Below are positions 13,801-63,250 of a DNA stretch of 64,000 nucleotides, one piece after another. The notes below the pieces were generated by a model. It was not told where the DNA came from, made no database searches, and saw only the letters and a list, made by a program, of their open reading frames with translations. Each line of letters starts with the position of its first letter. Within the stretch, counting starts at the first letter, position 1. This stretch comes from Heliocidaris erythrogramma (lineage: Eukaryota; Echinodermata; Echinoidea; Camarodonta; Echinometridae). The translations under genes and the position numbers were made by a program. The stretch lies in assembly GCA_025617745.1 (NCBI GenBank), contig CM046873.1:30083410-30147409 (forward strand). Reading direction: 5' to 3'.

Positions 13801-16800
13801 ACTTTAAACGAAAGCTAAATTCTGTGACTGCCTACAATTTCTCTGTGTACACAAATTTCGTCAATGACAGGGACTATTTGGAATGTCATAGTGTTGTGGA
13901 ATGTGCATTTTATTTCAAAATCTTAGAAAAAACTATTTGAACATTTTAAAACAAGGTATGTGTGTTTTTTCAGAAGAGAAATTTGCCTATTTTGGATTGC
14001 TGTGAATTTGAATTACCATTGAAGAAATAGATGCAGCTTTTTGTAATTACCTGCAAATGTATCCTTTCTATATAAAATGAGTAATTCGTTCAGATCGGTG
14101 AATGTTTCGGTGAATGTTTCTACTGTTTTGGTGAACAGTGCTTTATGTGACAGTGTGGTAAAGCATTGTAAATGGTAAATGGTTCTGCAATCGTAAAAAT
14201 ACAGTTTTTATTATTTTTGAATTATTGGTTGTCATTTTTAATTGGAGGGTCACATTCATTCATAAATATCAACTCTGGAAAAAAAAGCGTAATCTTCACT
14301 GCTTTGGCAAGATGCTTTTGAGGTATAAAACAGACCTGCCATAAAGGAGAACATACTATGTGTGCCCAAATCAGATGCCCTTTTTAATTGGTATGAAATC
14401 ACTGCTAAAGATCACTTCTAAGGATCACTTCTTTTGGTAGCTCATAAGTGGTTCAGGGATGAAATGCTCAACTCTTTACTTGCCTTGGGCAGACTAAAGG
14501 CACAAATAGTAGAATGCCGCAGTCGACTTTTGTCACAAATACGGTAAACTCCAAACTCCAAACAACGTACCAGTTCAGGATCTTAATAATCCATAGCGAA
14601 TAAAGAGTTAAGATGCTTACGATGGAATGAAGTTAAGTGTCTCTCTGTATGATTTTTGGAACCACTTAGGACCAAATCCACAACCAAATCCACAACCAGA
14701 AAGACCGACTATGACTCTGGAGCTTCAAGCGAAGCCTGGAAACGTTTCGCTAACGCCAAGAGCATATCGTCAGAACAGTTTTTCAGCCAGGAATCCAAGG
14801 ATTCTGATGTAAGCATACTCTGTAATTTATTCATCATGCAAAAAAAAAAAAGGAAAAAGAGAAAAAGAAAAAAGAGAGAATGTGACATTTTATGGTAACT
14901 TCACTTTTCTATAAACCTCACACTTATAATTTTACTGTTGTGGTCTAGTAGTTTGAGCACTGTTCTCTTTAGGCTCTTGGTTCAAGTCCCTGCTGCGGAA
15001 GAAATTGGACATAGGGCAATCCAGCCTCGATGTTTGAGTTCTGTTTTTTCTTATGATTTGTGCTATTTATTTTTAAATTCTGAGAATGCTTTGCTTGTAT
15101 TTTCTGCTTTCAGTTAAAGTAACTCGACATCAAGGTTGGATTGTTTTGAAATGTTGATGGTTTTTCCATTGTTCTTATTATGAGAATGAATTACTTAGCA
15201 AATATTTTTATATCGCTTTTTTATCACATACACAAATCAAAGAAGGCTCAGCAAAATCATGTTTTATCTAATATTGACTTACTTGTTATCAGGTCAGTGG
15301 ATTACCCATTTGTGAAGCAATGATTGTCATAATGTCAACAGACTATGAAATAGCAGTTTGAGTTGCGATCATGCTTCTGTGTCAATGCTAAGTCTCAATA
15401 TCATTACTATCAAACCAGAAATATTTGCGTGCTTGGAACTTCTGCAAAGTTTTCCAATGGTTGAGATTCAGGAAGTTTCCTGGCTCAAATTTTTAAAAAT
15501 TTTAGATGAACCACAGATGAAACATTTGAAATTCACAATTGTTTCCTGCCATGGCTGTCATTAGTGGTTTGCGTAAGTTTCAGGTGACACACTAGTTAGC
15601 AGACCATTTTGGCCTGTCAGAGGGACTTGAAGGTCAAATCAAAGCGCGTAACTGAATCGGCCCTAAGATTTGCTATTTTGAGAGGGCCATTAGTAGTTAG
15701 TTTGGCATCACAGCAAAATGTTGTGTGACCTCTACATAATTTATGGCATACAAAGGATTCATGATATTCACTGCAATTAAAATAGACAAGCTAATCAACA
15801 AGCATGGTAGTCAACTGTTTCAGTAAGCCTTTGAGGAGCTATTTTACTTTCAAAATAATATTTCATTTTGAAAAACTAGTCAGTGCTTCTCACTTCTCCT
15901 GCATCATGTTTGCACAATTGCACAAACTAAAATCGTGATATTCAGCAAAACCTCTGGTACTGTATATTGCATCATCTCGATGACTGCTGTTTTCTAGATC
16001 TCTAGATTTTCTCCAGTCACTCTGACTCCCAATTATACATGTAATAGTACACTATTCTTTGTTTTCATTCCAGAATTTGGCATATATTTTTTTTTTCCCG
16101 CTACACACAAACAAGATGGAAATATTGTATCATAGACGAGAGAGAAGTGATACTTACATAATAAGTACAGAATTCATGTGGTACAATTGCCTTTTAATAT
16201 TATGTTTGCGTGTGTATGCTTGTGATCACTTCACCAATATATCTTGGATGATGTAAAGTAGTGTCACCAATGATTACTTCTTTGCATTTCCTTCCCATAT
16301 GATATCGAGTCGGTTCTTAAAGGCCAAGTCCACCCTAACAAATAGTTGATTTGAATAAATAGAGAAAAATCCAACAAGCATAACACTGAAAATTTCATCA
16401 AAATAGGATGTAAAATAAGAAAGTTATGGTATTTTAAAATTTCGCTTAATTTCGCAAAACAGTTGTATGCACATCCTGCTCAGTATGCAAATGAGGGAAC
16501 CAGTGACGTCACCCACTCACTATTTCTTTTGTATTTTATTACATGAAATACGAAATATTTTAATTTTTCCTTGTTATAATGTGAAACAAGGTCTGATTCC
16601 TCGCTGAACATGTGTAATTGCCATTGTTGCAACCTATACGCAATTCAATGAGAGCTTCCTAATTGTGAAATCTGCAGAAATTAAAATATTCTATATTTCA
16701 CATAATAAAATACAAAAGAAATAGTGAGTGGGTGACGTCACTGGTTCCCTCATTTGCATACTGAGCAGGATGTACATATAACTGTTTTGCGAAATTAAGC

Positions 16801-41080: not shown

Positions 41081-42103
41081 CATTATTGTTATTATTGTTA
41101 TTAATATTATTATTATAATTATCATGATCACTATGATGATGATGATGATGATTAATATCTATCTTATTATTATTGTTGTTGTTGTTATCATCACCATAAT
41201 CATCACAATCCTTATTATCATCATCATCATTTTAACGTAATTTCTGAGTATGGTCTTCTCCATGTAACATTTTTTAGACCCAGAGATCCGAATCCCGCTC
41301 ACCTGGCGGACGGTGTCTACGGGCTTCCTCGTCCTTTCAATGGGTGTCCCACTGACTGGGATGCTGGAAATCGCATTCATCCCTCACAGGGCGACCCAAA
41401 CTCTGGCAGCGACGGGAAGGCTTTTGCGGGCTGGTGGTTCGGGCAATATTCGAAACAAGAATTTTGCATGAAAACCGTACCTGACATGCCTGGTGCGCAA
41501 TGGCAATGGCAGCCAGGGTCGTATTGCATTTACCAGTATGGTTCACAATGCCCACAAGTATGATTTGCATATAAATGTATATTCCTTCCATGGAATTTCA
41601 TTTTCTTTCCATAAGTCGTTTTATATTTCAATTTCTGTCACCGTGTTTTATCATATACTACGGACAAAAATTCTACACCAATCTCCGAGGTTTCGAATCT
41701 CGAAAATTTCTCGGTAAGTGATTGAGGAGGGGCACACGAGTCATGGGGGGCAATTCCACAGAAAATGATCACTTGCCAAAAATCATAAAATGTGTCGTTT
41801 CACGACATTATTAATTGGTATATCAATAGGATTGAAGTGTATTTAGTAATGATCTTTTATTCTTAAAACAACTCTATTTGAGGACTAAATGTGACTACAA
41901 TTTTGGTCAAAACATCTTCATAAAATCTACCGAAGAAAATGCAGTAGGGTGCGTCACCTTTTGAAATATGCGAATATGACAATGACATACATGTATATTC
42001 AACCAAAAAAGTGATAAGCCAGGAGCCTGTCCGGAAATAGTCATCCCATTTTACCCATAAGTTTTGACCCTTAAAAGTTAAACCATAGTAAGTCATTGAC
42101 AAA

Positions 42104-45191: not shown

Positions 45192-45691
45192 NNNNNNNNN
45201 NNNNNNNNNNNNNNNNNNNNNNNNNNNNNNNNNNNNNNNNNNNNNNNNNNNNNNNNNNNNNNNNNNNNNNNNNNNNNNNNNNNNNNNNNNNNNNNNNNNN
45301 NNNNNNNNNNNNNNNNNNNNNNNNNNNNNNNNNNNNNNNNNNNNNNNNNNNNNNNNNNNNNNNNNNNNNNNNNNNNNNNNNNNNNNNNNNNNNNNNNNNN
45401 NNNNNNNNNNNNNNNNNNNNNNNNNNNNNNNNNNNNNNNNNNNNNNNNNNNNNNNNNNNNNNNNNNNNNNNNNNNNNNNNNNNNNNNNNNNNNNNNNNNN
45501 NNNNNNNNNNNNNNNNNNNNNNNNNNNNNNNNNNNNNNNNNNNNNNNNNNNNNNNNNNNNNNNNNNNNNNNNNNNNNNNNNNNNNNNNNNNNNNNNNNNN
45601 NNNNNNNNNNNNNNNNNNNNNNNNNNNNNNNNNNNNNNNNNNNNNNNNNNNNNNNNNNNNNNNNNNNNNNNNNNNNNNNNNNNNNNNNNNN
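45192..45691. other. Assembly gap, 500 N
   Basis: Exactly 500 unknown bases, a conventional scaffold-gap length. ORFs spanning it have no meaning. Confidence 1.
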
Positions 45692-46949
45692 GTTCCTATT
45701 AAAAAGAAATACATCAGCTCTCACTTGGATGAGATTTTCAGCCCCCCAAAAAGAAAAATCAATGGTTTTTGATTGATTTTTTATGTTGCAACAACAGAGT
45801 CACCAAAAATTGTTTAAAGTAATTTTGTGTTTTACTCTAATTGGGCATTTTCTTTTAAAAATATAATGCCGATTTAAAGTGGATTTCAATCGTGCTATTC
45901 CTGGTGCACTGGTTTGCAGAATGACGTAAAATAAATGTTATCTTTGCAGGCAACGTTGATTTCAGGGTCTGAACCCCCTGCCCAAATTTGGCTTTGCCAA
46001 GGACTAATAGCGAAAAAATGTGAAATAATATCAGCGGTGTGTCTATGGGGACAGGAGCACACATGCCCTGGGCATCGATCTCCACCTCGATGGCCCCGGG
46101 CGACACAGATGGGGGCTAAAAACGCAAAAGAGAGAAAGAAAAGAGGTGGATTGCAAACATTCTGGATTCTTCGCCTCCAATCCGCAGGGTAAATGCATCA
46201 GAAATATTTTTTTGAGGATTTGCAATGCAAAAGTTTTCTGCAGCTCGGTCGCTTTACTTCCTGGCATAATTTTCCTCCGAGATCTCATAATTTCACACCC
46301 CAGTATAGGATATAGTGTTTTAGAAGGGCTCAAGAATAATTCTCGTTGCTTTGCTCGCCATTATGCAAGTTTCATCATCCTAGCTCTTGTTGAATATTGC
46401 GCCCCAATGTAGGATCGCTTTTACAAAGGTTCAACATTTAAAAGAAATGTCAACTTTCGGTTGTCTTCCTAAATTCTTCGACTATTTCTTAATGTTACTA
46501 TTAATTTTAGAAGGAAGTGAATAGAAACCTGTTTATCAATGCTAAAAATTCAGATCTCTACCCCTCGATCACAGTGCTCAAGTGTGACAAATTTTCCTTG
46601 GTAAATTGCATAAGTAATTGCGTTTTGGGGGTTAAAAATACAAAAAAGTCTATTGCTCGTATGCTTTGCTCCCTCGCTTTTAAAATGACATGGATAGGTT
46701 GGAGGGGGGGGGGGGGTAGGGGCACTACTTCATTGTTTGCCCCGGGTGCCAGAAGTCCGAGATAAGCAACAGAATTAAAAAAATATATGTTCTGCTCACA
46801 GCACCCCCAGTAAAAAAAATCGTTCCCAGGGGCCTGGTGTCTTGGACATGTATGACAAGTAAGAATTTTAAAAAGAATCAACTTTACTGATAAAAATAAA
46901 GTTTCCACATTTTTAAAGCTAAATATGTACATCATGCATTACAGTGCAT
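45692..46949. other. Intergenic DNA, nothing recognised
   Basis: Several short ORFs on both strands (for example 46146-46412) with no domain or splice pattern that I recognise. A G run lies near 46704-46715. The 3' end of the apextrin-like gene was looked for here and not found. Confidence 0.5.
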
Positions 46950-46958
46950 CCTTTCCCC
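46950..46958 (+). repeat. 9-bp target site duplication, left
   Basis: CCTTTCCCC, repeated in the same orientation at 58738-58746 just outside the matching inverted arm. Confidence 0.75.
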
Positions 46959-47297
46959 TATAACTCCAGGGAGCTCCAACGCACAGCATTGGAGCTCCAG
47001 GTACAAATAACCAAAGTCCACCTCTCCTATTAGTATGGCTAGTCGCATCGCTTAATTTCGGCAAGTAAGATAGAAATTTGTACTTAAATTTCAAGAGAAT
47101 TACTGTAAGTATGTAGGAGGCTCTTTGATTTTACGATTTAACGATTATTTTTATACAGTGTTTCTATTTGTGTGCTACTTGTGCACTTGCCTTGAATGTT
47201 TTTCTTGCCCAGTGCATATTGACAGGTATCTCTTTAGTAAAATTGTGTATTTGTAATTTGTTTGTATACTTACTTTGTAACTTGTTTATGTACTCTT

Positions 47298-48530
47298 ATG
47301 CCTGAAGATCGTAACTACCAACAATTCAGAACTTTTGATATTAACCATTATACAGATATTTTGTCTCCTAATGACAATGACAGCAATTTAGATAGACCAC
47401 AACAGTCATTTTATTCTCCTCTGGAATTTAATGATCATTTACGTGACTATAATATAGATCAAATTAAAAACAAATTTTGTTGTCTCCATATTAATTGCAG
47501 AAGTTTACATAAAAATTTTGATAACATGATAGCAGTTCTTAGTAGTATGAACGTGCAATTTTCTGTTATCGGTCTAACTGAGACATGGCTGAGACAGAAC
47601 GACCCATTGTACAATCTAGAAGGCTATATATTCAAAGGAAATTCTCGCAAGGAAAAAACTGGTGGTGGAGTAGGGATTTTTATCAAAGATGAAATCACTG
47701 TGAAATATAGAGATGATTTAGATGTATATACTGATTATATTGAGAGTATCTTTACTGAAATACTTCATGTTCATAAAAATATTATTGTAGGTGTTGTGTA
47801 CAGACCTCCTGGTCAACCTGTGCAACCATTTTTGGATGCATTGAATGTTATAATTGATATTGTGAATAAGGAAAAGAAACTGTTTTATTTATTAGGTGAT
47901 TTTAACATTGATTTGCTTACAGCTACTTCTTGCCAGTATGTCGATGATTTTCTTGATCTTTTCATGACTAATTCAATGTATCCTTTGATACATTATCCGA
48001 CTCGGGTTACCACACACTCTGCAACGTTGTTAGATAACATATTTACAAATGATTTTAATGTATTATCCACAGGTGTAATTTTAGTTGATGTAAGTGACCA
48101 TTTTCCTGTATTCTGTATTTGTGACAATCAAATAAGCAGTAAGCTGTTAAAGATAAAAAGACGTGAAATAAAGGAAGAAAATATAATCAGTTTTATTGAT
48201 AAATTAAATGATGTTAGGTGGATATTCGATATTGATCCAAATAACAGTTATGATTGCTTCTTTAAACAATTTTTTCTTGTATATGATGAGTGTTTCCCAA
48301 TCAAATATGTGACTTTTTCTAAGAAGCATAAACAAAAACCCTGGTTTACAAAGAAACTACGCAAACTATGCAACAAAAGATGGAGTCTTTATAAACAATT
48401 TATCAAAAATCCTACTGAATATCGGGAAAAGAAATATAAAAAATTTAGAAATATGGTCACTTTTGAATTAAGATTGGCTAAACAGATGTATTTTAAAGAC
48501 AAGTTCTCTGGTGCAAGAGCAAATATAACT
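47298..48530 (+). CDS. LINE ORF2 part 1: APE-type endonuclease
   Basis: ATG at 47298. Motifs in order: HINCRSLHKN, GLTETWL (catalytic Glu), GGGVGIFI, GVVYRPPG, LLGDFNIDLL (Asp/Asn pair), and SDHFPVF (Ser-Asp-His). These are the catalytic residues of the LINE apurinic endonuclease and all are present. Then comes PWFTKKLRKLCNKR, the linker before the reverse transcriptase. The frame is cut at 48530 by a MITE and resumes at 50021. Confidence 0.9.
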
Positions 48531-48689
48531 AGATGAATATTCGACCGCGCGCGGTCGGAATTTATGCCTCCGCCATCACCAGATCGGAAATGTATGGTAT
48601 ACATGTACACTCTAAAAAGGATTGGTCCAACAAAATTACAAATCATTTCACTTAAAATGCACAGGAGACAAAAATTTATTTCATTTCAT

Positions 48690-49870
48690 TTTCAAACGAG
48701 GCTAAAAACCAGTAATGTCATGCAATTTCATGTAAAATTGACCTCTGTGGCCTCTGACCTTTGACCTACTTACACCAAAATCTAATCAGTTCATCTTTCT
48801 ATGAGGATACATACTGGTACCAAGTTTGAAGTTCTTACCTCAAACAGTTCTTGAGATATCGCAGTAACGGTGCTAAAAACCAAGAATTTCATGTAATTTC
48901 ATGTAAATTGACCTCTGTGACCTCTGACCTTTGACCTACTTACCCCAAAATCTAATCAGTTCATCTTCGTACGGGGATACATACTAGTACCAAGTTTGAA
49001 GTTCTTACCTCAAACAGTTCTTGAGATATCGCGGTAACGGTGCTAAAAACCAAGAATTTCATGTAATTTCATGTAAATTGACCTCTGTGACCTCTGACCT
49101 TTGACCTACTTACCCCAAAATCTAATCAGTTCATCTTCGTATGGGGATACATACTAGTACCAAGTATGAAGTTCTTACCTCAAACAGTTCTTGAGATATC
49201 GCAGTAACGGTGCTAAAAACCAAGAATTTCATGTAATTTCATGTAAATTGACCTCTGTGACCTCTGACCTTTGACCTACTTACCCCAAAATCTAATCAGT
49301 TCATCTTCGTATGGGGATACATACTAGTACCAAGTTTGAAGTTCTTACCTCAAACAGTTCTTGAGATATCGCAGTAACGGTGCTAAAAACCAAGAATTTC
49401 ATGTAATTTCATGTAAATTGACCTCTGTGACCTCTGACCTTTGACCTACTTACCCCAAAATCTAATCAGTTCATCTTCGTATGGGGATACATACTAGTAC
49501 CAAGTTTGAAGTTCTTACCTCAAACAGTTCTTGAGATATCGCGGTAACGGTGCTAAAAACCAAGAATTTCATGTAATTTCATGTAAATTGACCTCTGTGA
49601 CCTCTGACCTTTGACCTACTTACCCCAAAATCTAATCAGTTCATCTTCGTATGGGGATACATACTAGTACCAAGTTTGAAGTTCTTACCTCAAACAGTTC
49701 TTGAGATATCGCGGTAACGGTGCTAAAAACCAAGAATTTCATGTAATTTCATGTAAATTGACCTCTGTGACCTCTGACCTTTGACCTACTTACCCCAAAA
49801 TCTAATCAGTTCATCTTCGTATGGGGATACATACTAGTACCAAGTTTGAGATTCCTACCTCAAATGATTC
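48690..49870 (+). repeat. Seven tandem units of exactly 170 bp with AGGTCA half sites
   Basis: The marker CAAACAGTTCTTGAGATATC starts at 48841, 49011, 49181, 49351, 49521 and 49691 (170 apart); a diverged seventh is at 49861. Each unit holds TGACCTCTGACCTTTGACCT, which on the - strand is three AGGTCA half sites spaced by one base, with one more half site 3 bp away in most units. Confidence 0.95.
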
Positions 49871-49897
49871 TTCAGATATTGCGGTAACGAGAAGTGG

Positions 49898-49960
49898 GAC
49901 GGACGGACGGACGGACGGACACACGGACGGACGGACGGACGGACGGACGGACGGACGGAC
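49898..49960 (+). repeat. GGAC microsatellite
   Basis: (GGAC)n with one ACAC interruption, at the right end of the MITE. Arg/Pro/Ser-rich ORFs here are artefacts. Confidence 0.95.
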
Positions 49961-50020
49961 AACCCGAAAACATAATGCCTCCGGCACCCACCTTCGGTGG
50001 GCGGAGGCATAAAAATAACT

Positions 50021-50419
50021 TGGTATATAAGGCGGTTCAATGGTGTTTTGGGTAAGAAGAAAAAATCTGTAAATATTCAACATATAATTTGTAATAATCA
50101 ATCGATTCGTGATGAGTCTACTATATCTCAAATTTTTAATGATTATTTTGTTGATATAGGTTACAACCTCACCAAAGATCTACAGGATTCGAGAAATAAT
50201 TTTACAAAGTATTTAAGCAGAAATGGATGTTCTGCTTATTTCAAACCTATAACATGTAAAGAAATAATAGATATAGTGTGTAATATGAAAAATGATACAA
50301 GTGCAGGATTTGATGATGTCACAGTCAAAATTATTAAAAGAGTTATTCATATAGTTTGTTTACCACTTTGTAAAATATTCAATAGGTCTATGACTGAAGG
50401 AGTGTTTCCTGACAAACTT
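50021..50419 (+). CDS. LINE ORF2 part 2: reverse transcriptase N-terminal part
   Basis: In frame with part 1 it reads TWYIRRFNGVLGKKKK, then INDYF-like IFNDYFVDIG, FKPITCKEIIDIVCNMKND, AGFDDVTVKIIK and EGVFPDKL. The Gly-x-Asp and PDKL segments match reverse transcriptase motif 1 and 2 of CR1-like LINEs. The frame is cut after Leu by the DIRS element and resumes at 56606 with KIAKDVPVYKNG. Confidence 0.88.
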
Positions 50420-50670
50420 GTAAAATCAGCACTGATTTTCTTATTTACTATATAAATCTATATACCTACCTATTATGCCTGTAGTCTTGACTACGGGACC
50501 CCTTCGAGAATTTAACACACATGAGTCACAATATTGTGCGCACCCCCCGTAATCCTATTGTCCCCTTCGCCACTCACGCGCGTCAACACGCTACGGCCAT
50601 CTTCCTCTTTTGCGAGCAATCCCAAGTAGAAACATGTTGCTTGCAAGGTGAGGGGAAGGAGGGAGGGTCA

Positions 50671-50764
50671 TAGGTAGGTATATAGATTTATATAGTAAAT
50701 AAGAAAATCAGTGCTGATTTTACAAATTTACTGCAATAAATCATATATACCTACTTATTATGCC
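50671..50764. repeat. DIRS internal complementary region
   Basis: 50671-50723 is the reverse complement of the left end (50420-50475). 50724-50764 is the reverse complement of the right end (about 56565-56605). The junction GATTTTAC|AAATTTAC matches the ends joined as in a circle. The region follows the tyrosine recombinase ORF. Confidence 0.9.
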
Positions 50765-50831
50765 AGACCAGCGCCAACTCAAAGACCGGGAGGCATGTTT
50801 CGAGCAGAAGGGAATAGGATTACACCAAAGA

Positions 50832-51557
50832 CTACAAAGAAGACACAGCGGCCTTCAAGGTGGCTGACGCAAACAAAGCTTCACCTGCGGGAACATCCCT
50901 AAGGTAGCAAGAAATGAAGGAATTGGGCGAACGCCAATAAGCAGCCTTCAAAATATCAACAAGCGCCACACCTTGAAACAGAGCCCAAGAAGTGCTGACA
51001 CTACGAGTATCATGAGCACGAGGCTTACTGTCGGATAAAAGAGCCTCTGTGCCAGCGGCCCTAATAGCTTCAACGATCCATCTAGAGATGGAATCAAGAG
51101 AGGCAGGAGAAAAAGGCTCTCTAGTGATCAGGAACAACTGATCATCCTTACGATAAGACTTAGTCTTATCAATATACCATTTGAGAGCCCTTACAGGACA
51201 CCAAACTTTGTCCTCACGCACCGAAGAAAAGTTAGAAAGCGGACAAAGAAAAATCTCAACAGGGCCAGAGGCAGCTGTCTGATTCTTGGCAACAAAAGAA
51301 GCCCTAGGAATCAATCTAACGCCTTTTCTCTCCCAGCGAACATGACCAGGAGTAAGACAGAGAGCATGAAGAGTACTGCGCCTCTGCCCAGAGGCAATAG
51401 CTACCAAAAAGAGCGTCTTAACCGTAAGATGATGAAGCGAAGCTTCACCTAACGGTTCGAAAGGAGGTTTCGCCAAGGCCTCCAGGACCTTAGGCAGACT
51501 CCAAGACAGCACTAACTTAGAAAAAGAAGGTCGTTTCAGAAAGAACGAACGAATCAA
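50832..51557 (-). CDS. DIRS tyrosine recombinase (catalytic part)
   Basis: One open frame of 241 residues holds the expected residues in order: Arg in SGQRRST, His-x-x-Arg in HDTRSVSTSW, and Trp then Tyr in YWRSPNSFISCYLRD. These fit the Arg-His-Arg-Tyr set of tyrosine recombinases, which in DIRS elements integrate a circular intermediate. The N-terminal core-binding part (STREIYNSRLSVFFLWCKEK, near 51790-51730) lies in another frame, and a TAG follows in RGYR-stop near 51628, so the full protein is broken. Confidence 0.85.
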   Translation of the reverse strand: MIRSFFLKRPSFSKLVLSWSLPKVLEALAKPPFEPLGEASLHHLTVKTLFLVAIASGQRRSTLHALCLTPGHVRWERKGVRLIPRASFVAKNQTAASGPVEIFLCPLSNFSSVREDKVWCPVRALKWYIDKTKSYRKDDQLFLITREPFSPASLDSISRWIVEAIRAAGTEALLSDSKPRAHDTRSVSTSWALFQGVALVDILKAAYWRSPNSFISCYLRDVPAGEALFASATLKAAVSSL

Positions 51558-51806
51558 ACCACTTAGTAGCGGGGAATTGGAAATCCCCGAACCATCCGAG
51601 AAACCCGAATGAATGGCCCCGATCGCCTAACGGTAGCCTCGGATAGTAGAGATAGATCTCCCTTTGTCAAATAACAAGATTAAGAAATCCGCAATTGAAC
51701 CAATAGGAGCCTTAGAAGGGGTTCGATTTCTTCTCTTTGCACCAAAGAAAAAAGACCGAGAGACGGGAATTGTAAATTTCCCTAGTAGAAACCCTACGAC
51801 TGGACA

Positions 51807-53385
51807 TTAAAAAGTCCGCGGCTCTATCAGAGAGACCCGACTGTCTTGCAGATCCCCTGACAGGGGCCAAGCAGTCAAATGAAGAGGCTCCGGACTGTGG
51901 TGAAGAATCCCCGATAGGGGCTGTAACACCAGATCCGCTCTTAACGGGAGAACGAACGGTTGAGCCCTTAGGAGGCTCATAAGTTCTGGAAACCAATTCC
52001 TCCTGGGCCAAAAGGGAGCTATTACGAGCACCCGCGCCCGATCTTCCCTGATTTTCCGCAAGACACGCGGAATCAGTTGGAAGGGAGGAAAGGCGAATCC
52101 CTGAAGGTTCTCCCAGCTGAGGGAGAAAGCATCGAGAGCCCATGCTCCCTGATCGCGAACACGGGAGCAATACTTCGGCAGCTGGTGATTTAGCACCGAC
52201 GCAAATAGATCCACTTCCAGTGGACCTAGGCAACTGCGAATGCGGCAAAATACCTCCGGATGGAGCGTCCATTCCGATGGAAGATACCTGCCCCGAGACA
52301 GAAAATCCGCAATGAGGTTTTCCCGACCGGGGATGAAAGAGGCCACGGGTGTGATTGCCATGCGACGACACCACCTCCACAGCTGAGCTGCTAGGGCATT
52401 CAGGGCAACCGAACGAGTGCCTCCCTGCCGATTGATATATGCCGCCACAGTAACATTGTCCGTGAGAATCAGAACCGAACGACTGAGAAGTCGACTTCTG
52501 AAATGGAGCAAGGTCAACAGAACTGCCATAAACTCCAGGACATTGATATGAGGAAGAGTCCCAAGATGAGACCAATCCCCCGCAACCGTGCTGCCGTTGC
52601 AGTGTCCTCCCCACCCCAACCGAGAGGCGTCCGTCGAAACCGATATCGACGGAAGAGGGGCAGAGAAGGACCTGCCTCGCGCGAGAAACACCTCGCTCGT
52701 CCAACAAGAGAGAAGAGACTTGATCCTTACTGGTACTGGAATCCAGACCAAAAGAGAGTCTTTTCCCGGCTTGAAGAACCTGAGGAGATGTCTCTGAAAG
52801 GGTCTCATGAGGAGCCGGCAGTCCTCTAAAACATCGACTAGACTGGCTAGATAACCTAGAAACTGAAGCCACTGTCTGGCCGAGACTCTTCTGGCCAGCA
52901 AGAGCTTGCGAGCCGCAGAGACAATGGTGAGAATCCTGTCTCGACTGGGCCGAGCCAACTGATTCCTTATGTCTAACACCGCCCCCAGAAAAACTGGGCT
53001 GCGAGTGGGAACTAACTCTGACTTTTCCCAATTTATTAGGAAACCTAAGTCTTGAGTAAGATTGACGAGCAAACTAGTCTCGTCCAACAAACAATCGCGC
53101 AACTCCGCTAGGAGAAGCCAATCGTCCAGGTAGCAAAAATAGCCGAAGGCCGCATCGCCTCAGAGAGGCTGCCAGCACGGCTACAACCTGAGTAAGAACC
53201 CGAGGGACTGGGCACAGCCCGAAGGGAAGAGTGCGAAAAAGATAAGTCCCTGAGAGGAAGAAAAACCCCAGAAGATCGCGCAAAGCGCGATGAACGGGAA
53301 AGTGGAAATACGCATCTTCGAAAACTATCAAGACCGCGTAGTCCTTCCTCTTGATCAACGGGAGAATGGAGGCGAGAGTCTCCAT
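51807..53385 (-). pseudogene. DIRS reverse transcriptase and RNase H, frameshifted
   Basis: Upstream part (53385-53140): METLASILPLIKRKDYAV, then DAYFHFPVH, DLLGFFFLSGTYLFR and LPFGLCPVPRVLTQV. Then YLDDWLLLAEL (near 53127-53095, catalytic Asp pair) continues into a frame open to 51807 with WEKSELV, STDASRLGWGGH (RNase H), TDNVTVAAYINRQGG and PGRENLIADFLSRG. A run of five A (53135-53139) breaks the frame just before YLDD. Motif A reads IVFEDAYF where the family has an Asp, so the catalytic Asp is lost. Not functional as written. Confidence 0.9.
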
Positions 53386-53740
53386 CCGAAAATGTACTGA
53401 AGTTTTCCCGAGTGCTTGGGAATAACAAAAGTCGGAGAAAGGGAAAAAGACAGCCTGTGAGGTGACCGAGTTCCTATAGCACCTCCAGGGAGCGGGGCGG
53501 ACAGATCTATGAAGAATCCGTCTCGTCCGTCAAAGAGAACAAAAGCGTCCCCGGAGATGGCCTCCCAAGCGGGGAGAAAGGAACGAAGACAGCCACCAAC
53601 CAATACTCTGCAACGGTACATGACCGAGGCAGCTGCAGTGGAAAACTATGACCACTACAAACCAAACATGACGCTCAAAAGAAGCACCGCTTCAATGCGT
53701 CCAAAATCCAGCTAGAAATCCTCCGCAAGAGAAAAACACT
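53386..53740 (-). pseudogene. DIRS reverse transcriptase N-terminal region, broken
   Basis: Fragments such as PLPGGAIGTRSPHRLSFSLS and FVIPKHSGKLQYIF (like the PKK/KWR-type start of the fingers) occur in a short - strand frame (53621-53355). Frame changes separate it from the downstream part. Confidence 0.6.
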
Positions 53741-55390
53741 CCGAGGAATCCCGCTGCCTGAACCCAAGCAAAGTCGAACCCTGCGCGCGGGTTGACTAAA
53801 AAGTCAGGGAAAGTTTAGAACAAAGCAATCGCTTCTACCCCACAAAGGGAGAGCAACTAAGGCTCTGCCTGCCCCAGCGATTCGGAAACCGAAGCTTGAG
53901 AGGCCGCTTCCAAAACTGGATCCGCCTGAAATGATCGTGACAAAGAATCACGAACAAAGGCAGAAACGGTCGGATTCACGCATGAACCGCCATAAGCCCC
54001 CTCACCCGACGGAGCCCCGAGGCTGCGAGACTAGGAGGCGCATGTGATCCCATCACAGACAAAGAAGAATAAACCATAAAAGGCTAATTAGTCTCGATGT
54101 CCGACCCAAAAAAGGGACAAGAGCAGGGGATGTGAATCCTGGTACAAGGGACCAACCCTGAGTCTGGGCAAAGCCCATCTCACACTGAACATCTCAGCTT
54201 GAGAGACCGGAGGGTTAGCTAAACCCGATGGGCAAGAGGCAGGCAAAGCCTTGCCTCTTTTAGCCCCTTCCCTAGGCTTCTGATTGGCCCAAAAAGAGCC
54301 TAAGTCGAAACCCGCTTTTCAGAGCGTTTATTCGGTTTCGTTCGGATCCCCGAAGCCTTTCGGGAACACGAACCGAACCCTCCGCTGAGGGACGCTCACC
54401 TCCCTTTATGGGAGAAGTGCGCTGAGGGTATTGAACCCAAAGACGCGCACCAATTACCCATATCGGCCGAGCAAGGAGATGCAACAGCCATGGGCCGGAC
54501 GCCAAGGCGCCCAGAGCAAGGGCGGACCGGGATGACCCGGCAAAGGAACGCCAACAAAGGACTCAGCAGGAATCCCGCTGCTTAAACCAACGCGAAGTCG
54601 AACCCTGCGCGCGGGTTGACTAAAATTCAGAGAGATATCTGGATAACAAAGCAATCGCTTCCACCCCACAGAGGGCGAGCGATTGAGACTCCGCCTGCCC
54701 AAGCGATTCAAAAACGAAGCTTGAGAGGCCACCTCCAAATCTGGTTCCACCCGAGTGGAAAGAGACAAAGGAACGCTAACAAAGGCCTCAGCAGGCAGAG
54801 CCCCGCATGGTTCAACGAAAGTCTCCTCGCCCAGCGGCGCCCCAAGGGCCGCGGGAATAGGAGGCACATGCGAAACCGACTCAGACAAAGACGAATCCAA
54901 CACAAAAGGCTGATTAGTCTCAAAGTCAGACCCCTGAATAGGGACAGAAGTCAGGGTTGAAGTAGCCGGTACAAAGGACCAACCCTGATTCTGAGCAAAA
55001 GCCCGCATCATGCTGAACATGTCAGCTTGAGAGGAGCTAGCTGGGTTAGCCAGGCCAGACGGGCAAGAGGCCGGCAAAGCCTTGCCACTTTTTGCCTTCT
55101 TCTTGGCCTTTTTCTTGGCTGGCTCGACAAGAGTCGTAGCCGAAACCCTTTTGTTAGAACGCTTAATCGGATTCGTTCGGATCTCCGAAGCCGCTTCGGA
55201 AACACGAACCGATCCCTCCGCGGAGGGACGTTCACTTCCCATAAAGGGATTGGAGCGCTCATGGCGTAAGCCTAGAGAATCGCCCAAATCACCCATATTG
55301 GCTAAGCAAGAAGATGCAGTAGCCATGGGTTGGGAGCTAAAAGCTCCCAGTGCGTGGGCAGACCGAGATGACTCGGTATGTGCCCGATGA
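53740..55390 (-). repeat. Direct duplication of about 824 bp inside the DIRS gag region
   Basis: The block from about 53740-54560 recurs at 54560-55390 with an offset near 824 bp. Shared words: GTCGAACCCTGCGCGCGGGT, GAAGCTTGAGAGGCC and CCTCCGC(T/G)GAGGGACG. Identity by eye is about 80 percent. The copy farther from the element's 5' end has more frame breaks. Confidence 0.8.
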
Positions 55391-55566
55391 CTACTAAAGG
55401 CGTGTGAACCCGCTATTGGACCGCTCGAAAGCAGCAATAGGGGAGCACTAGTAGTCACGCACTCAGGTGAAAACACCTGTTGCCCCGAAGAGCGTCCATA
55501 ATTGTTAGCTCGAGCATTCCCATTAGCTGGCAATATAGACAGCCCAGGAAGTACTCGTTCCCCCAT
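54454..55566 (-). CDS. DIRS gag-like ORF
   Basis: 370 residues, Ser/Pro/Ala-rich, with a basic run AKKKAKKKAKSGK and an Arg-Ile-Lys-rich segment. It has the position and composition of the first ORF in DIRS elements, which have poorly conserved gag proteins. No zinc knuckle is seen. An upstream frame (56061-55846) with Ser-rich MDSEEEAARSRRPASSEESS could be the true N-terminus, separated by a frame change. Confidence 0.6.
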   Translation of the reverse strand: MGERVLPGLSILPANGNARANNYGRSSGQQVFSPECVTTSAPLLLLSSGPIAGSHAFSSHRAHTESSRSAHALGAFSSQPMATASSCLANMGDLGDSLGLRHERSNPFMGSERPSAEGSVRVSEAASEIRTNPIKRSNKRVSATTLVEPAKKKAKKKAKSGKALPASCPSGLANPASSSQADMFSMMRAFAQNQGWSFVPATSTLTSVPIQGSDFETNQPFVLDSSLSESVSHVPPIPAALGAPLGEETFVEPCGALPAEAFVSVPLSLSTRVEPDLEVASQASFLNRLGRRSLNRSPSVGWKRLLCYPDISLNFSQPARRVRLRVGLSSGIPAESFVGVPLPGHPGPPLLWAPWRPAHGCCISLLGRYG

Positions 55567-56605
55567 ATGGCGTTTGCCGGGGGCTAGGGTTTGAGAACCC
55601 AGACCAACATGGACTAAGCCCGTGGGTTGCCCTGCAGTAGTGGGGCGCGTCTCCCCTAACGGATCAGAGCGAGTGAACGCTACCGTACGGGAAACAACCG
55701 CCTCCCCCCTCTGGTCTCAGCGACCGGGGGATTGGAATCGTTAGATATCCAAACCACTAGAATCTGACGCCACCCACCCCGAAACCACGGGCTTCGGAGT
55801 TGACAATCCCGACTCAGTTAACGCCACCCGTCCCGAAGCCGCAAGCTACGAGACTGGCAAACTCTGCAAGGAAACACCACTAGGCAACTTACCCTTACCC
55901 CTCCTCCCTCCCCCATGTACCGAAGTACTCGGGAGAGTTCTGGAAGGCCGAGTCGTCTTGCTAGACGACTCTTCGGAAGAAGCAGGCCTCCTTGACCTAG
56001 CTGCTTCTTCTTCCGAATCCATACCACTGCAATAAAACAGACAAAAAAGTATACTTTTCAAAATAAGAAATACTTCAACTGATGCAGTAAAATAAGGGTA
56101 AATTTTATTTGGGAGATACGCACAAAAGAATTTTCACAGCCAAAAAACTGTAAGAACAAACACCGAACCCAAAGGCTCGGTGACAAACGGAAACACCCGC
56201 AAACACACAGAAATATCTACGTGGGGCTGACCGTGAAAGAGAAAAATAAATGCCAAGAAAGGGAAACAAAAATCCCTTGCAATCGGCAAGAGTGACTACT
56301 AAAACACAAAGTACTATAATCTAAGCGAATATAGGTACCTAAAAGTGCTTTAAATGTGCGAAAAAGCGCACCTAAAAGATACTATACGACCTGATTTCAG
56401 GAGCGCTGTGACTATACGTCCTATCTCGTCGGGGGCGAGCAAGAAAGAGGAAGATGGCCGTAGCGTGTGAGTGGCGAAGGGGACAATAGGATTACGGGGG
56501 GTGCGCACAATATTGTGACTCATGTGTGATAAATTCTCGAAGGGGTCCCGTAGTCAAGACTACAGGCATAATAGGTAGGTATATATGATTTATTGCAGTA
56601 AATTT

Positions 56606-57976
56606 AAAATAGCTAAAGATGTACCTGTATATAAGAATGGTTCACATGAAGAAGTTACTAATTATCGCCCAATATCTGTACTCTCTATATTTTCAAAAAT
56701 CATTGACAGGTGTTTTTAAAACAGGCTATCGTGTTTTTTAACTCAGTGCAATATAATTAGTGAGAGTCAGTATGGATTCAGAGAGGGGCACTCCACAGCG
56801 TCTGCCTTAGTTGACTTTATTCATAAAGTATCAACTGCACTTGACAATAAACAATCAACAATAGGTTTATTTTTAGATTTGAGCAAAGCATTCGACACTT
56901 TAGATCATGGTATTTTATTGAATAAATTAGAGAATTATGGAATACGAGGTGTTATATTGAAATGGTTTCAAAGTTATTTATCAAATCGTAAGCAGTATGT
57001 TATAATTAATAATTGTGAATCTCAAATGAAGTGCACGCGATGTGGGGTGCCCCAAGGTTCAATCCTCGGCCCGTTATTATTTATAATATATGTTAATGAT
57101 ATATGTCATGTGTCAAATATACTTCAGTTTATTCTTTTTGCAGATGACACTAGTGTGTATTTATCTCATGAAAATGTACAAACTCTTCAACTTACTTTTA
57201 ATACTGAACTTATGGCACTGACTGAGTGGTTCAACACAAATAGATTAATTCTGAATGTAAATAAGACAAATTTTATGATTTTCTCAAACAAGAAATGTAA
57301 TTTTGATAATGTGTCTCTTATTATGAATAATACCGATGTTCATCAAGTATCTACTTTGAAATTTTTGGGTGTAACCATTGATAATAAACTCTCTTGGCAT
57401 AATCATATTGGTGACATCTGCAATAAGGTATCAAAAAATATAGGTGTTTTAAACAAGTTGAAAATATTCCCTACCACTATCTTGAAAATACTATATTACT
57501 CACTTATATATCCATATCTTAACTACTGCAATATTACCTGGGCTAATTCTAAAGATTATTATATGACACGTTTGTTTAGGTTACAAAAGCGAGCTATAAG
57601 GGTTGTAAGTAAAGTGTCTTTTTATGCACATACTCAGCGACTATTTCTTCAATTGAAAATTCTGAATTTGTATAATGTGAACATCTATAATATTTCAATT
57701 TTTATGTACCTATGCTCTAAGAATAAAATCCCATTACGTATTTCTAAGCAATTTCATTTAAATACCACAATACATAATTACTCCACCAGAAACTCAGTTA
57801 ATTTTCACGTTCCTATGATAAGAACACTAGTATCAAAGAATTCTATTTTCTTCAAGGGCCCTATGGTATGGAAATCTATTCCTCTTGATATTCAAAACAG
57901 TCCATCTTTGCAATGTTTTAAAAGGAGACTTAAAGTTACTTTATTGGAAAATCAAAAATGTTTAGGAGCTGAATGA
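56606..57976 (+). CDS. LINE ORF2 part 3: reverse transcriptase core, one stop codon
   Basis: It continues the frame after the DIRS insertion: VPVYKNGSHEEVTNYRPISV, then SESQYGFREGHSTASALVDF, LFLDLSKAFDTLDH (motif A Asp), GVPQGSILGPLLFIIYVNDI, FILFADDTSVYL (Asp pair) and FLGVTIDNKLSWHNHI. It ends at TGA 57974-57976. A TAA at 56717-56719 is the only break noticed. An intact downstream ORF starts at about 56879 (365 residues). Confidence 0.9.
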
Positions 57977-58348
57977 TCAGGCTTGTATTTGTATTTGTTA
58001 ATTTTCTTCTTTCCTATCATACTTCTTTTGCTTATTTCTATTCTGTCCCCTTGTCTGTTTGTTCTCTTGTATACATGCCACAATAACTGCCAATTGCAAT
58101 ATCACTGTATTTTATTATTTTTTAGTCAATTTACCTTCATGCAATTTTCTTGCTGGGGTAGCTATTATATAAGATTTGCTCTTCTCAGCTGCCCCCAATC
58201 ACATAATAAGATTGTCTTTGTAATGTTCTGTTGTACATAATTATGTACTTGTATTCTTTGTTGTAATGTTTATTCTTTGGATTTTGAATGTAATACGTTG
58301 TATGACCTGTCTTTTATTATGTGTTTGAAATAAATTGAATTGAATTGA
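57977..58348 (+). other. LINE 3' UTR and tail
   Basis: AT-rich 3' UTR ending in TTGAATTGAATTGAAT. The 85-residue ORF here is low complexity. Confidence 0.75.
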
Positions 58349-58737
58349 ATGAAAAAAATGGGAATTTCCTTGCCGAGCCGATCTTTCCCCGTACTGTACC
58401 GTCATTCAAATGACTCAATCGCATGGTGCGTAATGTGCACTGTATACCGTCGCTGACTCGATCACACAGTGCAATCGAATCATTTGAATCGACGGTACAG
58501 TACGGGAAAGATCGGCTCGGCGAGGAAATTCCATTTTTTTTTCATCGAAATAATCGTTAAATCGTAAAATCAAAGAGCCTCCTAGATAGTTTCAGTAATT
58601 CTCTTAAAATGTAAGTACAAATTTCTATCTTACCTGCCGAAATTAAGCGATGCGACTAGCCATACTAATGGGCGAGATCGACTTTGGTTATTTGTACCTG
58701 GAGCTCCAACGCTGCGCGTTGGAGCTCCCTGGAGTTA

Positions 58738-58746
58738 CCTTTCCCC
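58738..58746 (+). repeat. 9-bp target site duplication, right
   Basis: CCTTTCCCC, partner of 46950-46958. Confidence 0.75.
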
Positions 58747-58830
58747 ATGTCCCAGACAGTAACGCATCCTCAAGTGGTTGGAAGAGATGGGGCAAAGAAA
58801 GAAATAACATTAAATGGTAAAAACTGATTA

Positions 58831-59648
58831 GTTATCCTCACTATATCATTCGGTGTTGATAGTTTAAAGAGTAAAAGTTCCCTAAGGATAGTCTGGGAGT
58901 AGACATACTTGTTTTATGGTAAATACCCATTCTTTGCTTTCTCTAATGCCTCATATAAAAGAGAATGGAGCCTTGTGCTCGTGGCAATATTTCCATTTTC
59001 TGGATCTAGCAATATACTCCTGCCACTTTGTGTGGACGGTAGAAAAAAGAGGGTAGAAAGTTATTCAATGGCAATTCCATTGCTTTCACATTTTATAACT
59101 CTGTGACTCTGTGACTGTCGCCCATATTTATAATGTAACACTCTAAATATTTATTAGTTCTTATTATCTGTAGCGTGGTACTGGGCGAGTGTCACGTCAA
59201 ATAATAACAAAGCACAGGTTGGGTCCAATGTTACAGCGAAGTACGTATAAGTATTTATTTTGCCATCCAGGCACACATAAATATGGGCGACAGTCACAGA
59301 GTCACAGAGTTATGATTTGATTTGATTTGATTTGATTTTATTCGTCAGGTATATTGCAATACAAACATAACCAGGTACCATGACAGGATAGCCCATGAAA
59401 GCCGAAATAAAATGTGAAAGCAATGGAATTGCCATTGAATAACTTTCTACACTCCTTTTTCTACCGTCCACACAAAGTGGCAGGAGTATATTGCTAGATC
59501 CAGAAAATGGAAATATTGCCACGAGCACAAGGCTCCATTCTTTTTTATATGAGGCATTAGAGAAAGCAAAGAATGGGTATTTACCATAAAACAAGTATGT
59601 CTACTCCCAGACTATCCTTAGGGAACTTTTTTATAGTGAGAGGATAAC
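58831..59648. mobile_element. Foldback element, right arm interrupted by a LINE tail
   Basis: The left arm about 58831-59135 pairs with the right arm about 59275-59648 (GTGGACGGTAGAAAAA, GTTATTCAATGGCAATTCCA, CACAGAGTCACAGAGTTAT). The same 60-residue reading (FYGKYPFFAFSNASYK) appears on both strands for this reason. An insert of about 90 bp (59316-59406) with GATTTG repeats is present only in the right arm. Confidence 0.85.
59316..59406 (-). mobile_element. Short LINE 3' end or SINE with (AAATC)n tail
   Basis: It begins with GATTTGATTTGATTTGAT on the + strand and is absent from the matching position in the left arm of the foldback element (58831-59135). The - strand reads as a LINE tail. 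Confidence 0.7.
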
Positions 59649-59669
59649 TACCGTATTCTCCTTGAGACA

Positions 59670-62330: not shown

Positions 62331-62539
62331 GTACAGCTGGGCAAATGGGAGAGGAGCTTGCAAGATACGTCATAGGGCTTTTGCTAAACAGTCGGGTAAC
62401 GTCGCGTCGCGTTGGTAGAAATTTTCGAACATTTTTCAGGAAGGTGTCTTCAAGGGGACAAATTGAAAAAGAGTCCATCTCAGTATGATTTTTCCCGTTT
62501 TCAGGCTAAAAACGACAAACAAGGGAATAAAGAAAACAA

Positions 62540-63250
62540 TAGAAGGATAATGCAAAGAAAAACATGAACTATAAAGAGAGAATAGAAGGGTAGGAAGGAT
62601 GGAAGAAAATATGATGAAAGGAAACAAAGAATGTAAAAGAAAGTAAAAATGAGTGGATAAAAACAAAGAAAAACATAAAGAAAGATAGAGACATAAATGA
62701 TAGAAGGATAAAGATATTAAGAGTAACATAAGGAAAGATAGAAGAGAAGATGATAATTTGAATAAAGGAATAACATAACGAAAGAAAAGATGAAAGGAAA
62801 ACAAAATGATAGAATAAAAGCAAAGAATGTTTTAAGGAAAGTAAATAAAGATGGGAAGCAGAAAATGATTTTAAAAAGAATAATATAAAAAAAAAGAGAA
62901 AATGATAGGAAAAAAAAAAGTTTAACTTATATAAAGAAAGACAGAGAGAAATGATAGAAGGATAAAGATTAACGTGAGGAAGGTGGGGGAGAAAATGATA
63001 ACAGGAAACAAAGAATATCATAACGAGAGGAAGGATGGAAAGATAACTGATAGATAGATAAAAGCAAGAAATGACAAAGCGAGAGATAGAGAGAAAAATG
63101 ATAAAAAGATAAATATAAACATGAAGAAAGGTGGAAGAGAAGATGATAAAAGGGAACAAAGAATAACAAAGTGAAGATGGAAAGCAATAAAAAAAGAGGA
63201 TAAAAAGAATAAATATAAACAGTAACATTATGAAAGATGGAAAACAAAAT
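62540..63250 (+). repeat. Polypurine tract, about 700 bp
   Basis: The + strand is nearly all A and G with loose repeats such as GATAGAAGGATAAAGAT and AACATAAGGAAAGAT. Long - strand ORFs rich in Phe, Leu and Ser come from this composition and are not genes. Confidence 0.85.

Follow-up and report, generated by a model that had tools for sequence, protein, structure and literature searches.

A four-deep nest of transposable elements in the genome of Heliocidaris erythrogramma, with an empty site for every insertion in the same assembly

The stretch of Heliocidaris erythrogramma DNA analysed here, referred to below as the window, is 64,000 nucleotides long (assembly GCA_025617745.1, contig CM046873.1, termed C21 in our searches, positions 30083410-30147409) and almost certainly holds a nest of ordinary transposable elements that is four deep. 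A dispersed repeat, which we call X, encloses a palindromic foldback element; the foldback encloses a long interspersed nuclear element (LINE); and the LINE encloses two further elements, a predicted non-autonomous Helentron of the HINE type and a DIRS retrotransposon. Every component appears to belong to a known family, and the reading of insertion order from nesting is an established method, represented by TinT and interruption analysis in the available parts of PMC3014933 and PMC2517846. The interpretation is carried by the finding that, for every insertion of the stack, an empty site is present in the same assembly. The genome searched was the window's own assembly (1,064,227,859 bases in 26 contigs); each list of matches holds about the best 40, and the candidate totals given below are first-look figures rather than confirmed copies. 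The boundaries of the elements, their empty sites, their anatomy and a partial order of insertion are demonstrated by these comparisons. An initial annotation of the window, made from the sequence alone, had held that the junctions could be placed nearly to the base and had proposed a search for empty sites. That search, run in the same genome, recovered uninterrupted copies of the LINE, of the palindrome and of the flank, and the empty sites fix each junction within a few bases. Coordinates are collected in Table 1.

The palindrome is bounded by the 9-bp target site duplication (TSD) that had been proposed for it: CCTTTCCCC stands at 46950-46958 and at 58738-58746, which are its sole two occurrences in the window, with none on the other strand. 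The arms of the element (46961-47150 and 58548-58737) are identical at 178 of 190 positions and are continued by an inner hairpin (58346-58544). A genome search with one arm gave 1400 candidates, of which 40 were scored and 20 loci taken (L021-L040). Two of these are the window's own arms; eight others are distinct elements with both ends (L038 and L040 show elements of this set a second time), and no paired ends were found in the other 10 loci. A 9-bp TSD accompanies seven of the eight distinct two-ended copies, being perfect in four and carrying one mismatch in three. Long inverted arms combined with a duplication of this length likewise characterize Tm1 (mostly 9-bp TSD) and Tetris (8-10 bp), which their authors, in the available parts of PMC3169594 and PMC4079207, place in the Mutator superfamily. 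The window's foldback element is probably Mutator-like as well, a placement made from duplication length and arms.

Further evidence for this insertion comes from the flanks. A search with the right flank (58747-58872) gave 211 candidates and at least 39 matches besides the window's own; these are 85-93% identical, and nearly all of them end at about position 75-87 of the query. In all 8 copies fetched of the 39 listed, the repeat runs unbroken from the right flank into the window's left flank at the site of the palindrome, and a single related 9-mer occupies the join (CCTTTCCAC in four copies, one- or two-base variants of it in the other four). Since all eight copies are continuous and carry one such 9-mer, they support the 9-bp duplication and also show X to be an older dispersed repeat into which the palindrome was inserted. 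X is the fourth level of the stack and had gone unnoticed. The initial annotation had spoken of four levels, but the four elements that it named reach a depth of three, with HINE and DIRS being siblings within the LINE; the overlooked host repeat is what makes the depth four. Directly upstream of X, positions 46700-46837 form part of another dispersed repeat, with 1070 candidates and with listed matches about 79-86% identical.

The LINE is recognized by two Pfam domains, Exo_endo_phos (E 1.2e-10) and RVT_1 (E 2.3e-32), both above their curated cut-offs. The window copy is 5'-truncated, a feature that the initial annotation had not recorded, because fuller copies reach at least 363 bp further upstream. 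Its 5' joint falls within a shared TATTT, its (TTGAA)n 3' end is of the same kind as that of other copies, and its insertion cost a few target bases and made no duplication. We take the LINE to be akin to the CR1/L2 group, which is alike in its endonuclease and reverse transcriptase (RT), in a short-repeat tail such as (TTGAA)n, in 5' truncation and in showing no TSD.

That the LINE split the palindrome is borne out by a duplicate of the locus elsewhere on C21. The left flank recurs there in reversed orientation (48111166-48111415, 96% identical), and the locus, L022, matches window positions 45854-46550 and 46616-47150 at 95%. Like the window, it carries CCTTTCCCC, then the two additional bases TA and the palindrome arm, after which the palindrome continues without the LINE. 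The LINE target site is also uninterrupted in other copies of the foldback family, e.g., L028, L029, and L040. The duplicated locus may have arisen by segmental duplication, or it may be a second haplotype that was misplaced. Its palindrome (L022/L081, at about 48.108-48.113 Mb of C21) was later cut by DNA that contains a helix-turn-helix transposase-like frame (HTH_28, E 3.4e-9). As a separate observation, 257 bp further on at L022/L081 match window positions 62376-62632 in reverse at 97.7%.

The two inner insertions were read against 12 fetched LINE copies, two of which do not reach the HINE site; L014 and L017 are not independent of each other, both belonging to a single near-identical duplicated stretch. 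At the DIRS site all 12 copies are continuous, reading exactly CAAACTTAAAATAG in 10 and one-base variants in L018 and L020, with no duplication. Analogously, HINE is absent from all 10 copies that cover its site, where they read ATAAAAAGAACATGG or ACAAAAAGAACATGG (L018 with one further change). The earlier claim that a DIRS element split the LINE is upheld by these copies. The broader claim, of two insertions within one LINE, also stands on the three LINE segments and the empty sites; the label of miniature inverted-repeat transposable element (MITE) that had been given to the smaller insert, and the ATAACT duplication ascribed to it, do not. The same copies bear on a case that the initial annotation itself had raised, in which a single composite LINE family natively carries both inserts. 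Nothing beyond proximity speaks for such an element, and we regard it as next to impossible, given that DIRS occurs in none of the 12 other LINE copies and HINE in none of the 10 covering ones, while each of the two inserts has at least 39 other near-identical matches elsewhere (of 1137 candidates for HINE, and of 885 or 1981 for DIRS, depending on the end).

The smaller insert is, judging by its architecture, a non-autonomous Helentron of the HINE/pearl type. In the available parts of PMC7492417 and PMC4067079, the layout of HINEs consists of a subterminal inverted repeat (subTIR), an inverted repeat (IR), a tetranucleotide microsatellite such as GTCC, tandem repeats, a second subTIR and a palindrome, and the elements are described as inserting at T-rich sites with no target duplication. 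The window insert, taken on the minus strand, matches that layout in its subTIRs, IR, microsatellite, repeats and palindrome. The likeness extends to the general anatomy, the GTCC-type microsatellite, repeats of about 170 bp and duplication-free insertion at a T-rich site; it is a likeness of organization.

A genome search with the HINE gave 1137 candidates, the best 40 of which (39 besides the window's) are 99-100% identical over 188 bases. In 20 of 20 loci, that of the window among them, one end of the element is CTAGATG, preceded by AA. The other end was located in 15 of the 20 and is followed by AAAA in all 15; in the remaining five no such end was located inside the locus. For L059, a second HINE insertion, the empty site is seen in a poly-A tract in L027 and L023, again without duplication. 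These ends decide between a Helentron and a cut-and-paste MITE that made a 6-bp ATAACT duplication, as had initially been proposed. ATAACT does stand on both sides of the insert, but the CT is the element's own fixed end in all 20 loci, and the empty site is ATAAAAAGAAC or ACAAAAAGAAC, not ATAACT, in 10 of the 10 covering LINE copies. ATAACT is missing from the empty site; its CT belongs to the HINE end. Moreover, none of 14 other two-ended copies shares ATAACT across the element (the longest share, in L052, is 5 bases), and the anatomy fits HINE elements as described in the available parts of PMC7492417 and PMC4067079, which make no duplication. A MITE with this duplication is, in our opinion, very unlikely, and the proposed duplication is withdrawn together with the label.

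The larger insert is a structurally complete DIRS retrotransposon, bounded in the window by CAAACTT-GTAAAATC on one side and GCAGTAAATTT-AAAATAG on the other. The outer left flank ends in TT in 19 of 20 loci and in CT at L063. Within the element, positions 50670-50729 are the reverse complement of 50414-50473 (59 of 60), and positions 50724-50764 are the reverse complement of 56565-56605 (41 nt, 98%); this is the internal complementary region (ICR). A further insertion within DIRS, considered for the inverted repeat 50414-50473/50670-50729, was rejected on identification of that repeat with the ICR. According to the available part of PMC3266345, DIRS elements carry an ICR, which the rolling-circle model of their integration requires, and follow an NTT core rule. 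The window element resembles the DIRS1-like retrotransposons of that report in its inverted terminal repeats (ITRs), in an ICR containing the circle junction, in an NTT-type core and in the lack of duplication, and it may also share their tyrosine recombinase-type and RT-type frames; it differs by a duplication of about 830 bp on the gag side and by broken frames.

This tandem duplication (53744-54428/54568-55264) is overlapped by the gag-like frames and is perhaps a trait of the family, to judge from the end positions of three other copies. In these three, whose ends could be paired from the best-40 lists, the element is 14, 112, and 290 bp shorter than in the window; a defect of the window copy alone was rejected on the ground that they keep nearly full length. 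The reading frames of the window copy are broken. Its putative recombinase frame shows the R, HxxR and Y motifs as RRST, HDTR and YL, a pattern that we take to be that of tyrosine recombinases; the frame has no Pfam match, a PDB search with it gave a chance-level match only (E 0.57), and its single-sequence fold prediction has a low confidence (pLDDT 34.5). The frame at 51807-53159 has Pfam matches below the curated cut-offs (RVT_1, E 0.015; RT_RNaseH, E 0.072; PCIF1_WW, E 0.009) together with the motifs YLDD and TDAS.

Searches with the two DIRS ends gave 885 and 1981 candidates; the best 40 per end, this copy included, are 99-100% identical, so that at least 39 others exist for each. This suggests that DIRS was recently active, with the reservation that a best-40 list is biased toward near-identity. 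The 19 other DIRS loci share 91-99.5% identity with the window copy across 1.84 kb, or across 1.44 kb in the case of L076. In L064, L066, and L070 the first 1.84 kb are 91-92% identical to the window copy and the terminal 345 bp, comprising end, ITR and ICR, are 99.7% identical; this may reflect end exchange or strong constraint, in copies that were chosen by end identity. The G+C content of DIRS (50420-56605) is 50.8%, as against about 30% in the surrounding LINE and 37% in window positions 1-45191.

The topology gives the order X, palindrome, LINE, and then HINE and DIRS. The statement that relative ages can be read from the stack is thus correct from the palindrome through the LINE to the two inner insertions; the order of HINE and DIRS is not readable, because the two do not touch. 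Private substitutions amount to 4 of 380 positions in the palindrome arms, 12 of about 3,500 in the LINE and 5 of 1,841 in DIRS.

Several observations weigh against the interpretation offered here, or against parts of it. At the join of X, the exact CCTTTCCCC is found in none of the 8 fetched copies, and the left half of X does not appear among the best 40 matches to 46700-46949 (of 1070 candidates), a list filled by a different, more abundant repeat. No duplication accompanies the foldback copy L024. A right arm of the palindrome was not found at the duplicated locus, and for this reason the LINE empty site is one-sided there. In HINE, private substitutions number 2 of 333 in the two flanking modules, nominally above the LINE rate though not distinguishably so, and 12 of 1,361 when the element is taken as a whole; 8 of these 12 fall within the final repeat unit, where misalignment is possible. 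All such counts are small, and the copies used for comparison had been selected for their similarity; for these reasons, and with the HINE rate nominally above that of the LINE, private substitutions support the outer order only.

The stack was, moreover, read from assembly sequence alone, and a false stack mis-joined from repeats has to be considered. It could be argued that all components are repeats and that the left TSD copy begins 1.26 kb beyond a scaffold gap of 500 Ns (45192-45691). The stack itself, however, contains no Ns, and its junctions, except for the 5' truncation of the LINE, lie at ends shown by other copies of the families and have matching empty sites. Nor would a mis-join make a 9-bp duplication with a single counterpart in 8 of 8 fetched relatives of the flanks. 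An assembly artefact is therefore highly improbable, and we retain the nest of successive insertions.

Our knowledge of the respective families, from which we infer the enzymes, the transposition mechanisms and the clade of the LINE, suggests the following history. An old dispersed X of about 190 bp or more would have been struck by a Mutator-like foldback element that duplicated 9 bp, after which the locus would have been duplicated or split into two haplotypes. Target-primed reverse transcription would then have brought a 5'-truncated CR1/L2-like LINE into the foldback arm of the window copy, leaving a short microhomology at its 5' joint and costing a few bases. HINE would then have entered the LINE by rolling-circle insertion into an A/T tract, making no target duplication and independently of the DIRS insertion. 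For DIRS, a tyrosine recombinase would have crossed its circle into a TT core, again with no duplication.

The LINE sequence adjoining the 5' end of HINE (50016-50036) carries three substitutions and a 6-bp insertion within 22 bp, none of which is present in the 10 covering LINE copies. Elsewhere this LINE, a young one, shows about 12 private substitutions over 3.5 kb; at that background rate, three or more substitutions in the cluster have P = 6.8e-5, a value that is uncorrected and was calculated for a cluster chosen after it had been seen. A footprint of error-prone repair, left by a locally mutagenic rolling-circle insertion of HINE, is a conceivable but rather doubtful explanation. No such cluster was found at the one other comparable HINE site, which lies in an older, noisier repeat, and this weighs against a mutagenic effect. 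Alternatively, the cluster may be an inherited variant.

Table 1. Features of the nested stack (window positions)
Feature	Position	Strand	Remarks
X, left part	46849-46958	.	Boundary approximate; alignments of 8/8 fetched copies to the joined flanks start at 46849-46910 and cross the junction
Left TSD copy	46950-46958	+	9 bp, CCTTTCCCC
Foldback, left part	46959-47150	+	Terminal inverted repeat TAACTCCAGGG from 46961; extra TA at 46959-46960
LINE, segment A	47151-48528	+	5'-truncated; endonuclease domain
Predicted non-autonomous Helentron (HINE/pearl type)	48529-50010	-	Architecture compared with published layout
HINE 3' palindrome	48543-48556	-	GACCGCGCGCGGTC
HINE 3' subTIR	about 48564-48574	-	
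HINE seven 170-bp repeats	48701-49889	-	
HINE GGAC microsatellite	49897-49960	-	
HINE IR and 5' subTIR	49975-50010	-	Hairpin end
LINE, segment B	about 50011-50419	+	Contains the 3 substitutions and 6-bp insertion at 50016-50036
DIRS, structurally complete	50420-56605	-	Ends fixed by empty sites and other copies
DIRS ITR, element 3' side	50443-50610	-	156 identities, 1 mismatch, 14 gap columns against reverse complement of 56444-56603
DIRS ICR	50670-50764	-	Reverse complement of left end joined to reverse complement of right end (circle-junction sequence)
DIRS putative tyrosine-recombinase frame	50832-51626	-	C-terminal part; frame broken in this copy
DIRS putative RT C-terminal part with YLDD, RNase H-like part, possible methyltransferase	51807-53159	-	Weak Pfam matches and motifs
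DIRS putative RT N-terminal part	53074-53529	-	RVT_1, E 0.0047, below curated cut-off
DIRS gag-like frames	54454-56133 (54454-55716, 55846-56133)	-	Gag by position only; 54454-55716 without Pfam match
DIRS ITR, element 5' side	56444-56603	-	Paired with 50443-50610
LINE, segment C	56606-58349	+	Reverse transcriptase; 3' end (TTGAA)n
Foldback, remainder	58350-58737	+	Inner hairpin and right arm
Right TSD copy	58738-58746	+	9 bp, CCTTTCCCC
X, right part	58747-58829	.	Boundary approximate

Other features of the window include a second nested stack, which adjoins the first at 58831-59653. Its foldback arms (58873-59096 and 59407-59630) are identical at 221 of 224 positions and enclose an element of about 219 bp with 37-bp perfect inverted ends (59095-59313), as well as a possible LINE tail beginning with (TGATT)n. 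Another long palindrome, at 16317-16927, has 250-nt arms that are 96% complementary and lie 111 nt apart. An ApeC (apextrin C-terminal) domain (E 1.4e-15) marks a host exon at 41156-41563, after which the gap of 500 Ns follows at 45192-45691.

Nested elements are common, and the stack is, in our opinion, a very clean instance of an ordinary phenomenon. Its added value lies in the unusual completeness of the evidence: within 11.8 kb it unites four classes of element, each presumed to insert by a mechanism of its own and each matched by an empty site in this genome. The genome of H. erythrogramma appears to be rich in near-identical copies of DIRS and HINE. If the mutation cluster beside HINE is indeed a footprint of its insertion, it would point to a possible mutagenic mode of Helentron insertion, which could be tested on many other copies.

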